A DNA stretch of 64,000 nucleotides from NCBI GenBank assembly GCA_008638215.1, contig VTPN01000002.1:1-64000 (forward strand), written 5' to 3'. Position numbers and translations under genes: made by a program. Numbering within the stretch: the stretch's first letter is position 1; the number at the start of each line of letters is the position of its first letter. This document shows, one piece after another, positions 1-6,448 of this stretch. Under the pieces are notes generated by a model. It searched no databases. It was not told the origin of the DNA and worked only from the letters and a program-made list of their open reading frames with translations. This DNA is from Pelagibacteraceae bacterium. Lineage in GTDB: Bacteria; Pseudomonadota; Alphaproteobacteria; HIMB59.

Positions 1-1578
1 GTTTATAAAATTAATTGTTTTTTCAATTTCGTTGTATGGGTCACCTTCAAAACTAGAAGAGGCAAATCTGCAAAGTCTTCGAACTTCATTAGAAAATAGT
101 AAATTTTTTGTAAAATTCAATCCTTTAGACTCCAAATGGTCATGAAGTTCATTAGGCGTTGATTTAAATAGGTTTTTTTTAATAATTTCGTTGCGAATAT
201 CTTTAAATTTTGATTGAAATTTTGCAGTTGCCAAAAGATCATATATTTTCTCTCTAGAGTCTGGATTTTCAATATAAAATAAAATCAAAGCTGCACTAAA
301 CTTAGATTTTAAGTCTTTACCCATTTCAGCAGTTGAAATTTGTTTATTTTGATTTTTAAAATGCGACTTTAAATTTGAAGGTTTGTTTTGAAAATATTTA
401 TTTAATATTTTCTTTAAATCAACATTTTCTATTGAGGATAAAATACTTTTTAATACTTTAGAGCCCTTAAATTGTTCATCAATGTCCTTACTAGAAAAAT
501 ACTTTTCTAAATATTTATCAATAAACTGCTCGATGTTTAGAGGTTGATTGATTAATTTGGTTAGTTGATCTTTTAAATCGGTTTCTAGCATTAGATCTGG
601 GTCATAATTTTTTGGAAGTAAAACAAATTTCACTCCAAGTTCAAAATCTTTTGAGGAAAGCAAATTATTCATTAACCTTATTGATGCATTCCTTCCTGCC
701 AAATCTCCATCGAGACATACTATAACTTCATAACCTTTTTTGGTTAGTTCAATTACCTTTTCATGATTGATTGATGTTCCTAGAGGTGCAACACAATTTA
801 AAAAACCAAATTGATAAAGTTTCAATACATCAAAATACCCCTCAACTAATATTAATCTTTTATCTAAATGTTTATCTAGTTTGCTTTCATTAAATAATAT
901 TTGTTTCTTTTTAAATAATTTAGTCTCCGCTGTATTAATATACTTTGGCAAACTTTCATCAATAACTCTACCGCCAAAACCAATAATTTTTTCTTGAGTA
1001 TTAGCAATAGGAACCATAACCCTATTATGAAAAAAAATTTTAGAATTTTGATTTTTATTAAAAACACCAGATGAAATTAAATCTTTTAACTCAAAATTAT
1101 CTAAAAGCTTTTTTTGAAGTGCAGAAGAGTTAAAAGAAGAACCTAAGTGAAATCTTTCAATTGTTTCTTGAGAAAATTTTCTTTTATTAAGAAGATAATC
1201 CATACAAACTTTTGACTGAAATAAATTTGAATGGAATAGTTCTTTTGAAAAATCATTAATTTCATAAATAATTGAATTAATTTTTGACGATCTATAGCTT
1301 AATTCAACTCCTGCCTTTGATGCCAATTCGTGCAATGCATCCTTGAAGTCATAGCCTTTAACTTTAATTAAAAAATCAATGACATTTCCATGTTCACCTG
1401 TGCTAAAGCAATGAAAAATTTTTTTTTCTTCATTTACAGAAAATGATGGAGTTTTTTCATTTTTAAATGGACTTAGCCCAAAATAATTATTTCCTTTTTT
1501 TTTTAATGGAATAGTGGCGTTAATGATATCAACGATAGAAGTTCTATTTATAACTTCTTTAATATTATCATCTGTCAT
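1..1578 (-). CDS. dnaG: DNA primase, 3' part beyond window
   Basis: Primase that makes RNA primers for the replication fork. 526 codons are visible, in frame to the left edge; the C-terminal helicase-binding end is outside. The N-terminal zinc-ribbon region (residues 30-66) aligns with the family (SPFKNEKTPSF, then FHCFSTGEHGN), but only C57 of the usual Cys/His ligands remains; S36, K39 and T60 stand at the other positions. The TOPRIM domain begins near residue 240 with VEGYFDV (E246) and a DGDLAGR motif further on. The ATG overlaps the yqeY stop by 4 bp (ATGA), so the two are co-transcribed leftward. yqeY-dnaG, usually followed by rpoD, is a common alphaproteobacterial order; rpoD may lie just outside. 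Confidence 0.97.
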   Translation of the reverse strand, partial: MTDDNIKEVINRTSIVDIINATIPLKKKGNNYFGLSPFKNEKTPSFSVNEEKKIFHCFSTGEHGNVIDFLIKVKGYDFKDALHELASKAGVELSYRSSKINSIIYEINDFSKELFHSNLFQSKVCMDYLLNKRKFSQETIERFHLGSSFNSSALQKKLLDNFELKDLISSGVFNKNQNSKIFFHNRVMVPIANTQEKIIGFGGRVIDESLPKYINTAETKLFKKKQILFNESKLDKHLDKRLILVEGYFDVLKLYQFGFLNCVAPLGTSINHEKVIELTKKGYEVIVCLDGDLAGRNASIRLMNNLLSSKDFELGVKFVLLPKNYDPDLMLETDLKDQLTKLINQPLNIEQFIDKYLEKYFSSKDIDEQFKGSKVLKSILSSIENVDLKKILNKYFQNKPSNLKSHFKNQNKQISTAEMGKDLKSKFSAALILFYIENPDSREKIYDLLATAKFQSKFKDIRNEIIKKNLFKSTPNELHDHLESKGLNFTKNLLFSNEVRRLCRFASSSFEGDPYNEIEKTINFIN

Positions 1579-2033
1579 TCACTAAAAATTTTTTTAATAA
1601 TACTAGATGCTAGGTTTAAATCTATCTGGCTATCATGATTTCTCTTCAATAACCCCATAAGTTTACCAAAGTCCTTAGATGTAAACTGATGATCTTTAAT
1701 ATAATTTAAAATTAATTCTTTTGTTGATTCTTCATTAATCGTGCTAGGAAGATATGAATTTAAATAGTCTAAATCAAAATTAAGTGTATCAATCATGACG
1801 GGATCATTTGCCTTTTCAGCATATTCTAATGATTCTTTTTTTTGTTTCACTTGTGTTTTGACTATTTTATAAAAATTTTCTTCACTTATTTTTGATAATT
1901 CTCTATCTAGATTCTCTTTAATAAGAAAATTTTTTAACTCTGAGGAAAGGAACCTAGCTATAGATAATTTTTTTTTATCCCCGCTTTTTAAGGCACTTTT
2001 TACATCTTCTGCTATTTTTTCTGCCAAACTCAT
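1575..2033 (-). CDS. yqeY: GatB/YqeY domain protein
   Basis: Small helical protein of 152 aa, the normal length for the YqeY family, which resembles the tRNA-binding tail domain of GatB. The start MSLAEKIAEDVKSALKSGDK and the later stretch with LNSYLPS are typical. Its exact role is not established; a link to aminoacyl-tRNA metabolism is the usual suggestion. It is the first gene of the leftward yqeY-dnaG unit and its TGA overlaps the dnaG ATG. Only 43 bp separate it from the divergent carA, so both promoters must fit in that space or reach into coding sequence. Confidence 0.93.
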   Translation of the reverse strand: MSLAEKIAEDVKSALKSGDKKKLSIARFLSSELKNFLIKENLDRELSKISEENFYKIVKTQVKQKKESLEYAEKANDPVMIDTLNFDLDYLNSYLPSTINEESTKELILNYIKDHQFTSKDFGKLMGLLKRNHDSQIDLNLASSIIKKIFSE

Positions 2034-2076: not shown

Positions 2077-3216
2077 ATGACCGTATTAGATAATCAAAAT
2101 AATCAAAATTATCAAAACGGATTTCTCATTTATAATCAAGATTTCATTTTTAAAGGAAAGTTCCTTAGTTCTGAACAATTTAAAATAGCTGAAATTTGCT
2201 TTAACACGAGTATGACAGGCTACCAAGAAATACTCACCGATCCATCTTATAAATCACAATTTATTAATTTTACCTTCCCTCTTATTGGTATTGTTGGCTG
2301 TAATGATGAGGACTATGAATCATGGAAAATTCATGCTTCAGGATTAATTTGTAGCGAAATTTATAGTTATTCTTCTAATTGGAGATCTGAAATAAATTTT
2401 ACCAAATGGCTATTAGACCAAAAATCATGTGCTTTTTTTGACTTAGACACCAGATCTCTCACTAAAATTATTAGAGATTTTGGTCCTAAAAATGTCATGT
2501 TATGTAGCGAAAATTATTTCAATGAAAAAGGTATCGATTTTATCATTGAGCAAATTAATCAGTATCCAACATTAGAAGAAAATGATGTTATTGCTGATTA
2601 CACAAGCGAGTTAAAAACAAAAGACAACAATATCAAAAGTAAAGCTTTAAATATTGCTTTTCTTGACTTTGGGGCTAAAGACAATATCAAAAAAAATCTT
2701 TCTAAACGAAATTGCAATTTACTAGAGTTTGATATGAATTTTAAAGCAGATAGTATTTTGTCAAAAAATCCAGATGGAATATTTTTAAGCAATGGTCCTG
2801 GTGACCCTCAAAAGGTTTTCAATAACATAAAGCCAGAACTTAAAAAAATTATAGAGAGTAAAATACCAACTTTTGGAATTTGTCTAGGACATCAGATCCT
2901 TAGTTTAGCTTTTAATGCTAAAACTAAAAGAATGGATAAAGGTCATAGAGGGGGCAATCATCCTGTAAAAAATTTAGAAACAGGCCGAGTTGAAATCACA
3001 TCTCAAAACCATGGCTTTGTTGTAAGCAAAGATGATTTTCCAAATGATTTAGAAATCTCCCATATTTCATTGTTTGATCATACTGTAGATGGTATGAAAT
3101 CTAAGTCACAGCCACTTTTCTCAGTTCAATATCATCCTGAGTCTAGTCCCGGCCCTCATGATAGTCGCTATCTTTTTGATAAATTTATTGAATTAATGAA
3201 ATCTAATGCCAGCTAG
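2077..3216 (+). CDS. carA: carbamoyl-phosphate synthase small subunit
   Basis: Glutaminase subunit that supplies ammonia to CarB for carbamoyl phosphate, which feeds pyrimidine and arginine synthesis. Length 379 aa matches the family. The class I glutamine amidotransferase triad is intact: nucleophile C269 in FGICLGHQ, and H353 and E355 in QYHPES, the same numbers as in E. coli. The N-terminal CarA domain shows [17 protein letters not shown]. The last 11 bp overlap carB, so translation of the two subunits is probably coupled. The ATG at 2077 gives the expected family N-terminus. Confidence 0.98.
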
Positions 3217-6200
3217 AAAAGATATTTCTAAAATTTTAGTAATTGGTTCAGGTCCAATTGTAATAGGTCAGGCTTGTGAATTTGACTATTCTGGAAGTCA
3301 AGCGTGCAAAGCGTTAAAAACTGAAGGTTACCAAGTGGTTCTTATTAACTCCAATCCCGCAACTATTATGACAGATCCTGAATTTGCAGACAAAACTTAT
3401 ATTGAACCAATTGATAAAGAAATTGTTAAAAAAATAATTGAAAAGGAAAAACCAGATGCGATCCTTCCCACAATGGGAGGGCAAACTGCTCTTAATATTG
3501 TGCGTGAATTAAATAAAGAGGATTACTTCTCTAACAACCCTATAAAAATTCTTGGTGCTAGCCCTAGGTCAATTGATGTAGCAGAGGATAGAGAACTATT
3601 TGCCCAAGCTATGGCCGAAATAGGACTAGAAACCCCTTTTAGCATAATTGTAGATGATACTTCAGATTTAGAAAAAATAGCTTTAGAGGTTACCTACCCT
3701 CTTATCTTAAGACCTTTTTATACTTTAGGGGGTAGTGGCGGAGGTATTGTATTCAACAAAGATGAATTTTTGCCAAAAGTTAAAAATGCTATTGATTTAA
3801 GTCCTGTTTCTAAAACTTTAGTAGAGGAATCTTTAATCGGCTGGAAAGAATTTGAGTTTGAAGTTGTCCGTGATAAATCAGATAATTCAATAATTGTTTG
3901 CTCCATAGAAAACTTAGACCCTATGGGTGTTCACACTGGAGATAGCATTACTATTGCTCCAGCCTTGACACTAACTGATAAAGAATTTCAGAAGTTAAGA
4001 AATCAAAGTATTGCGATATTAAGAAAAATAGGAGTCGAGACAGGTGGGTCTAATGTGCAATTTGCAGTTAACCCGTCTAATGGAAGAATACTAATTATCG
4101 AAATGAATCCGAGGGTAAGTAGATCCTCGGCATTGGCATCAAAAGCAACAGGTTTTCCAATTGCTAAAATTGCTGCCCTCTTAGCGGTGGGCTATACATT
4201 AGATGAGCTAAAGAATGATATTACTAAAGTCACCCCCGCAAGTTTTGAACCAGTTATAGATTATGTGGTAACCAAAATTCCTAAATTTAATTTTGAAAAA
4301 TTCCAAGGAACTCCAAAAGTTCTAAATACTGCTATGAAATCTGTTGGGGAAATAATGGCTATTGGTAGAAGCTTCAAAGAGTCTATTTTAAAAGGCTTCT
4401 ACTCTATTGAAGGAGATAATTTAGGTTTTGATATTTCGCATGAACTCCTCAATTTAAAAGATGTTGAATTAAGAGAACAATTAACAATTCAAAGACCAGA
4501 TCGATTAATAATAGTTGCCGAAGCAATCAGAAGAGACTTTTCTTTAGAAGATATTAATTCAATTACTGGAATTGATAATTTTTTTCTAAGGGAAATTAAA
4601 GAAATTATTGATGTTGAAAAATTACTAGTTAAATCTCAAGGTTCTTTCGATTTGAATTTAATCACTCAGGCTAAAAAAATTGGTTTTTCTAATACTCATA
4701 TTGCAAGCTTAATCAAAAAAGATGTAACAGGTATTTATGACTTATTGAATAATAATGGAATGAAGAATGTTTTTAAGAGAGTAGATACTTGTGGAAATGA
4801 ATTTGACTCTTCGACAGCCTATCTCTACTCAAGTTTTAGCAAAGATGTAAATTTGTTTAGTTGTGAAGCGAGACCTTCCACAAAAGAGAAAATTATTATA
4901 CTTGGCTCAGGTCCTAATAGAATTGGCCAGGGTATAGAATTTGATTATTGCTGTGTTCAGGCAGTAAAATCCTTTCAAAATTTAGGATATGAAACAATTA
5001 TGATTAATTGTAACCCTGAAACAGTTTCAACTGACTATGACACCTCTGATAAATTATACTTTGAACCTTTAGATTTTGAATTTGTTAAAAATATTATCGA
5101 TAGAGAAAATACTAATGGTTCTGTAAAAGGAGTGGTGGTCCAATTTGGTGGTCAAACACCTCTACGAATTGCTAATAAATTAAAGGAATATGGATACAAG
5201 ATCCTCGGAACATCTTTTGATGCAATTGATATTTCTGAGGATCGAGAGAGATTTCAGCAATTAATTCAAAAAGTAGGCTTAAAACAACCCAAAAGTGACA
5301 TATCAATTGGCACAAAAGAACTTCTCAAAAAGACTACTAAATTAAAATTCCCTATTTTACTTCGGCCATCTTATGTACTTGGTGGAAGAATGATGGAAAA
5401 AATGAATAGCTCGGAAGATGTGCAAAATTATATTGACCAAAATTATTGGGCTTTAGAAAATAATGTTATTTTGATTGACGAATTCTTAAAGGATGCAAAA
5501 GAAGTAGATGTAGATGTTTTAAGAGATAATTCTGGTAATTGTATGATTGCTGGAATTATGGAGCATATAGAAGAAGCCGGTATTCATTCTGGTGATAGCG
5601 CCTGCTGCATTCCTCCTTTTTCTCTAGATATCAGCATTATCGACCAGATTAAAAGTTTTAGTAAGAGCTTAGCTAATGAATTAGGCACAATAGGTTTGAT
5701 GAACATTCAATATGCAATTAAAGATAATGAAATATATATACTTGAGGCCAACCCGAGAGCTAGTAGAACTATACCATTTTTAGCAAAAGCCATTGGCATC
5801 CCCTTCATTAAAATAGCTGCAGAGTTAATCGCTGGAAAAACTTTATCTAAAAATTTTATAGATTTTAAGCCTGAGTCATTGCCTTACTTTGCTATTAAAG
5901 AAGCGGTTTTTGTTTTTAATAAATTTCCCAATACGGATGTGATTTTAGGACCAGAGATGAAAAGTACTGGTGAAGTCATGGGCATTGATGAAGACTTTAA
6001 TATGGCCTATTTGAAAAGTCAGATTGGCTCAGGTCATAAACTTTATAATCTAAAAAATATTTTCGTTTCAGTGAAAGATGAAGACAAAAATGATATTTTG
6101 GAAATAGTCAAATCATTGAGTGAGAATAACTATAATATTTATACAACTCGAGGTACTCATGAATTCTTATCAAATAAAGGTCTTGTCACTAATCTTGTGA

Positions 6201-6448
6201 ATAAAGTAGCAGAAGGTTCCCCACATGTTGTTGAACTTATCAAAGAAGGTAAAATCGATATGATAATCAATACCACTGAAAATAAACAGGCAATTAAAGA
6301 TAGTTTCACTATTAGAAGGACTGCGGTTGATTTGAGCGTACCCTATTTTACCAATCTAAGAAGTGCAAAAATTCTATATAAATCTTTAATATTGCTCAAA
6401 AATAGCCAAATTTCGGTTAAAGCTATTCAAAATCATCATATCTATTAA
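3206..6448 (+). CDS. carB: carbamoyl-phosphate synthase large subunit
   Basis: ATP-dependent synthetase subunit that makes carbamoyl phosphate from bicarbonate and CarA-derived ammonia. At 1080 aa it is full length, with the usual tandem architecture: an N-terminal carboxyphosphate half starting [22 protein letters not shown], and a second carbamate half starting near residue 565 ([20 protein letters not shown]). Each half has an ATP-grasp domain. A C-terminal MGS-like allosteric domain (about 940-1080) is present. The gene starts inside the 3' end of carA. Nothing in it looks degraded. Confidence 0.98.

Follow-up and report, generated by a model that had tools for sequence, protein, structure and literature searches.

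The window analysed here, a 64,000-nucleotide stretch from a Pelagibacteraceae bacterium, opens with a gene for DNA primase, dnaG, on the reverse strand (positions 1–1578; residues 1–526), whose C-terminal tip is truncated by the start of contig C25 of an assembly in 72 contigs (92% complete). The N-terminal zinc ribbon domain, here in a ligand-free form, comprises residues 1–99 (1282–1578, reverse strand) and was recognized by a Pfam match, a structural model, and a fold match. A YqeY-like gene adjoins dnaG upstream (1575–2033, reverse strand), and beyond it lie the divergent neighbor carA (2077–3216, forward strand) and carB (3206–6448, forward strand), one of the two species markers used in our trees; the names yqeY, carA, and carB are putative assignments. 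The gene order carB-carA / yqeY-dnaG-rpoD of this locus was identical in the family of the window genome (f1), its sister family (f2), and a SAR11-like family (f89), and an RpoD-like ORF scoring >300 bits was found in 64 of the 68 dnaG regions fetched.

The window ORF matched TIGR01391 with 353.1 bits (cut-off, 283.6) over profile positions 3–410 of 414, and the Pfam model Zn_ribbon_DnaG with 109.5 bits (cut-off, 24.9) over residues 3–96, while PF08275 (DNAG_N) and three Toprim models were also matched above their cut-offs. The DnaB-binding Pfam domain had no match at E ≤0.001 in the 526 residues, the profile being weak and the last residues being lost at the contig edge; the same profile reached only E = 0.0009, below the cut-off, in the primase of another locus (L151). 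The DnaG of a same-genus relative with a single-contig genome (G058) has 527 residues and is alignable over 526, so the window gene lacks little sequence.

Zinc-ligand positions and predicted fold

Positions 1399–1473 of the window correspond exactly to residues 36–60 of DnaG. When a profile built from the window ribbon together with 35 relatives was aligned to the solved ribbons of Bacillus stearothermophilus (PDB 1D0Q) and Aquifex aeolicus (PDB 2AU3), residues S36, K39, C57, and T60 fell on the C/H/C/C zinc ligands. Ligand 1 (Cys) is replaced by S36 (1471–1473), ligand 2 (His) by K39 (1462–1464), and ligand 4 (Cys) by T60 (1399–1401), all on the reverse strand, and C57 (1408–1410, reverse strand) is the sole former ligand retained. 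The window DnaG thus carries S36, K39, C57, and T60 at the positions of the four C/H/C/C ligands by which a CHC2 zinc ribbon is recognized, which bears out the original prediction that three of the four ligands are gone from an otherwise conserved ribbon.

We defined a ligand-free group by Ser at position 36, Ser or Thr at 60, Ser or Ala at 59, and at most one of the old ligands, a definition that includes the window ribbon, and compared 22 ligand-free with 125 zinc-type family representatives. Position 36 was Ser in all 22 ligand-free representatives and Cys in all 125 zinc-type ones; position 39 was N, K, T, Q, S, or G in the former and His in 125/125 of the latter; and position 60 was Ser (16) or Thr (6) as against Cys (125/125). 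Position 57 was Cys in 18 of the 22 and Asp in the other 4, which are alphaproteobacterial families with Ser at both 36 and 60. The two groups also differed outside the ligands: residue 59 (S59 in the window; 1402–1404, reverse strand) was Ser (20) or Ala (2) in 22/22 ligand-free representatives and Gly in 124/125 zinc-type ones, and residue 62 (E62 in the window; 1393–1395, reverse strand) was Lys (11) or Glu (9) in 20/22 of the former and Ala in 97/125 of the latter. The separation was therefore full at residues 36, 39, and 60 and nearly full at residues 59 and 62.

An AlphaFold2 model of residues 1–103, based on 36 sequences, had a mean pLDDT of 92.1 (about 97 over residues 11–90). Its top fold match was 1D0Q (Z 16.1; rmsd 1.7 over 97; Foldseek rmsd 1.0 over 93 columns), followed by 2AU3 (Z 14.8), human Twinkle (Z 7.9), and T4 primosome chains (Z 6.9 and 6.5); matches below about Z 6.5 were set aside as common arrangements. 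The closeness of this predicted structure to the Bacillus zinc ribbon suggests that the fold has been kept, as had been supposed from the sequence. Because a control set of 26 CHCC phage ribbons yielded the same predicted fold with high confidence (pLDDT 96.5), the model is silent on bound metal.

Distribution of ligand-free ribbons

The survey took in 31 genomes from the genus and order, 241 from the class, 299 from the phylum, and 68 chosen individually. The loci were picked to span families, mostly with one genome each, and low-scoring alphaproteobacterial genomes were added deliberately; nine class genomes with no match were left out, and when three of these were retried, two gave no match and one a weak match. 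Profile alignment classified 219 of the 220 loci (L001–L220), with the window genome entering twice (L001 and L016), whereas L030, a weak Toprim match, gave no ribbon. Among the 219, 178 were CHCC, 36 had one ligand, 4 had none, and one (L151) was CHCC split by an insert. Ligand loss was therefore all-or-none, as 218 of the 219 loci had either four ligands or at most one, L151 being the exception. In this last locus (G107, family f78), an insert of approximately 317 residues lies exactly at the third ligand cysteine (ORF residues 91–407, translated from base 2); it has intein-like ends (...HHAFALEDNILTGN followed by C) and a LAGLIDADG_3 match, and is probably an intein inside the primase zinc site.

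Within the family of the window genome, all 18 same-genus genomes read (the window genome and 17 others) had the residues SKCT, except that one of these 18 (L028) lacks residue 36 and reads KCT at the other three positions; another, G058, is a single contig of 1.41 Mb (99% complete). By contrast, the sister family f2 of the same order was CHCC in 11/11 loci. The trait had tentatively been considered one shared by Alphaproteobacteria, but this must be rejected: its occurrence is patchy, and 126 of the 148 alphaproteobacterial families (the insert-split f78 among them) were CHCC, with 22 ligand-free, including one SAR11-like family. The six non-alphaproteobacterial families were all CHCC, a sample restricted to the 30 best-scoring loci, so that losses may hide among low-scoring ones.

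When named genomes were searched with a ligand-free profile, the best 80 of at least 568 confirmed matches (at least 595 stretches) were all ligand-free, as a query of this kind favors such ribbons. These 80 included many Pelagibacteraceae (SAR11), HIMB114, and a Candidatus Fonsibacter MAG, as well as Aestuariispira insulae, Robiginitomaculum antarcticum, and a Filomicrobium MAG. Family f89 is called SAR11-like because its ribbon (L143) is identical to that of HIMB114 (L231). The ribbon of Methylobacterium bullatum reads SNCS. A DNA pattern for HCF[S/T..][S/T..]G[K/E]HG was found in 11 of 397 Pseudomonadota genomes, all belonging to the genome's own group or the same class; since the pattern misses Asp57 and other forms, this count gives no frequency.

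Evolutionary history of the N-terminal domain

Trees of the catalytic core, with the N-domain excluded, required many changes between the zinc-type and ligand-free states: 17 in a quick tree of 171 rows, at least 4 of them forced by starred branches, and 14 in a careful tree of 74 rows, at least 7 of them forced, although the bootstrap of the latter had not settled. An RpoD tree of 64 rows needed 13 changes (at least 5 forced), and a quick RpoD plus CarB tree of 66 rows, many represented by RpoD only, needed 14 (at least 6 forced). In the N-domain tree, from which the trait columns were dropped, 10 changes were needed. A single ligand-free clade was rejected by the core (p = 5e-5) and by RpoD plus CarB (p = 9e-54), so one alphaproteobacterial loss followed by vertical descent is discarded on these two data sets, but the N-domain, with its approximately 100 columns and low power, did not reject one alphaproteobacterial ligand-free clade (p = 0.39; p = 0.29 with the window and 0.50 without it). 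Starred sister pairs of opposite state occurred in the core tree (f111/f5, f28/f140, and f132/f22); the RpoD plus CarB tree recovered f28/f140 (support 99), but f132 paired there with f58, which is likewise ligand-free.

The position of the window family varied among the trees. The 74-row core tree placed it nearest to f2 (99/76) and the 171-row quick tree beside the long CHCC row of f17 (L152), with a support of 87 and a long-branch warning; on RpoD plus CarB, it lay without resolution among f2, f89, and f57. The core did not reject a single clade of f1, the SAR11-like f89, f23, and f44 (p = 0.24), and the zinc loss in the window genus may or may not have been independent of that in SAR11.

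Because the core and RpoD plus CarB reject a single clade and the N-domain does not, parallel loss and exchange of the N-domain are both possible. The ligand-free ribbons of Alphaproteobacteria might have had one origin, with the N-terminal module spreading by recombination and phages as possible carriers, instead of being lost repeatedly in place. This discordance of the N-domain tests with the others would fit such a history, as would an excess identity of 2.5% among ligand-free N-domains away from the site and the ligand-free primase of a Caulobacter phage. However, the few columns of the N-domain would let a single clade pass easily, parallel loss is equally allowed, and a core-half control showed an excess of 1.3%, matching part of the signal, so that common N-domain ancestry is only weakly indicated by identity. 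Furthermore, the ribbons with which the window N-domain grouped, if weakly (97/68), were zinc-type ones from Pseudomonadota outside the Alphaproteobacteria and not other ligand-free ones. We therefore regard a single, exchanged module as a possible history that we hold tentatively and below even confidence.

Ligand-free and type II ribbons in phages

When viral sequences were scanned with the ligand-free profile, the best 80 matches comprised 18 ligand-free and 62 CHCC ribbons. Caulobacter phage Sansa (L370, 1495–3279) encodes a ligand-free primase (STCS) close to that of the chromosomal family f58 (L372), and ligand-free primases were also found in the Flavobacterium phages laban6-1 (SVDS) and 1H and in the Cellulophaga phage Ingeline_1. 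Six ligand-free rows, those of three Flavobacterium/Cellulophaga phages and three viral contigs (L417, L429, L441, L472, L476, and L477), grouped with four named Bacteroidota records, which were CHCC (99/96, trait columns dropped), and the set analyzed, which held 24 ligand-free rows, rejected a single clade of them all (p = 0.008, 94 columns). On these grounds, the signature SPF...[CD][FY]S[ST]G seems to have at least two origins, and the ligand-free ribbons of Bacteroidota-type phages apparently arose separately. We presume that cellular Flavobacteriia may be ligand-free too.

A distinct zinc-type N-domain with the motif WDxxKS...DWWACCPFH, here called type II, was present in 12 loci (L100, L103, L105, L108, L111, L114, L120, L128, L129, L130, L135, and L142). 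The N-domain tree united all 12 rows (94, unstarred), whereas in the core tree the 11 rows were scattered, needing 8 changes, and a single clade had p = 0.042. Their excess identity was 17% in residues 1–32 and nil in residues 66–95; because the likeness lies mostly in the former, what these domains have in common may be a short piece or a product of convergence. In one large clade of the RpoD plus CarB tree (SH-aLRT 94), 9 of the 10 zinc-type rows were type II; we take this clade to be Rhizobiales/Caulobacterales/Rhodobacterales-like. The N-domain of alphaproteobacterial primases might thus be an exchangeable module that was zinc-free in one large clade and regained zinc several times via type II, with phage primases as carriers, a scenario that these trees suggest but that we consider speculative and rather unlikely. 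Were it true, the start sites of lagging-strand primers could be retuned by such exchange. The primase of Dinoroseobacter phage vB_DshS-R4C (L371, 1489–2667) has a zinc N-domain of the WDxxKS type II and is a possible vehicle of domain exchange.

Function of the ligand-free ribbon

We consider it quite probable that the window DnaG is the working replicative primase of the cell and that the canonical zinc site of its ribbon has fallen out of use. In the mechanism that we propose, hydrogen bonds of S36, S59, and T60, together with K39 and C57, would hold the two knuckles of the ribbon in zinc's stead, and the ribbon would still read the template DNA and pass it to the catalytic core. The all-or-none pattern of loss could be explained if a half-built zinc site were worse than either end state; as for the benefit, the cell might save zinc, or the ribbon might be spared oxidation and the loss of its metal. 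This reading has to be set against published statements that primase function depends on the zinc ribbon (PMC5204125) and that human Twinkle, with three of its four ligand cysteines gone, no longer primes (PMC7231222).

Alternatively, a metal might still be bound via other residues, for example H56, C57, and H63, or the oxygen ligands S36, T60, and D57. None of H56, C57, and H63 varies in the 36-row alignment, and four ligand-free alphaproteobacterial families combine Asp57 with Ser36 and Ser60. However, H56 and H63 are also present in many zinc-type ribbons, both are absent from the same-genus loci L017 and L029, which have K56 and G63, and C57 itself gives way to Asp in the four families. 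No substitute set of four Cys/His ligands is conserved, even in the window genus, and we judge continued binding through other residues to be improbable.

Another conceivable reading is that the ribbon is a decaying remnant that no longer primes, with priming performed by something else. This is the case for human Twinkle, in which three of the four ligand cysteines are absent and primase activity is lost, according to PMC7231222, and which is the next fold match of our model after the two DnaG ribbons. Selection on the window gene argues against decay: among 16 same-genus genes, pN/pS was 0.026 in residues 31–67, 0.083 in the N-domain, and 0.258 in the core (residues 106–400), so that the ribbon had the lowest value of the three regions compared and was approximately tenfold more constrained than the core, and residues 36, 39, 57, 59, 60, and 62 were invariant across all 16. 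Moreover, the matches to DNAG_N and Toprim lie above their cut-offs, and the same ribbon residues recur in ligand-free ribbons elsewhere. As for a substitute enzyme, one Zn_ribbon_DnaG match each was found in the window genome, where a second primase could escape at 92% completeness, and in the single-contig G058, and the search for Prim-Pol in four same-genus genomes, G058 included, gave no match. The search covered the DnaG and Prim-Pol families, the latter in ten genomes. Within this scope, DnaG is the sole primase found in the genus; ligand-free genomes elsewhere can hold more, with two Prim-Pol matches in G297 (f142) and three Zn_ribbon_DnaG matches each in G124 (f95) and Robiginitomaculum, and the control Caulobacter vibrioides also had a Prim-Pol match. 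A remnant that has ceased to prime is accordingly very unlikely, and the retention of a DNA role by the ribbon, which the original prediction had proposed, is supported indirectly by the strong purifying selection and by there being no other recognized primase in the genus. An assembly or annotation artefact, conceivable for a genome in 72 contigs, is refuted by the agreement of the 18 same-genus genomes, one of them a single contig, and by the purifying selection. The ligand-free ribbon appears to be a genuine variant that is well preserved, and not a product of decay.

Comparison with known systems

A DnaG review describes four conserved ligands and a ribbon that acts in sequence recognition (PMC6163395), and another paper a zinc-coordinating ribbon that is essential for primase, with an adjacent lysine tuning the choice of trinucleotide (PMC5204125); PMC10218098 repeats this standard view. 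In bacterial primases, the ribbon is also regarded as the element by which primer start sites are recognized. No description of a zinc-free DnaG was found in the literature searched, which covered few subscription journals. Natural and strongly constrained primases without the ligands, in organisms that include SAR11, provide a direct test of the role of the metal. If they prime normally, zinc is a structural staple replaceable by other residues; if their choice of start site differs, the zinc site belongs to sequence recognition. A switch that recurs in all-or-none fashion, and with the same substitutions, is also a clean case for the study of metal-site loss.

The window ribbon resembles the CHC2 ribbons 1D0Q and 2AU3 in its domain, predicted fold, gene, and place in the protein, and differs from them in that three of the four ligands are replaced and residues 59 and 62 have changed along with them. 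The N-terminal ribbon of Twinkle is likewise of the primase type, lacks three of its four ligand cysteines (PMC7231222), and has a recognizably similar fold; PMC3610141 states the same loss for the zinc-finger cysteines of metazoan Twinkle. Priming has been lost in Twinkle, whereas the window DnaG retains its core domains and is strongly constrained, and searches with two families found no other primase in the genus. Zinc sites have likewise been lost from otherwise conserved proteins in the zinc-independent paralogues controlled by Zur, but these are second copies proposed to serve under zinc limitation (PMC2770081); the words "DnaG" and "primase" are absent from the main text of that paper. 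The window DnaG is not a second copy for zinc starvation, because it is the only DnaG found in the window genome. Among bacterial ribosomal proteins, S4, for instance, is likewise an essential information-processing protein with a patchy occurrence of zinc and zinc-free (C-) forms, for which several origins and horizontal transfer have been proposed (PMC3087516); the window case differs in that it concerns an enzyme of replication, with a zinc ribbon that has been called essential.
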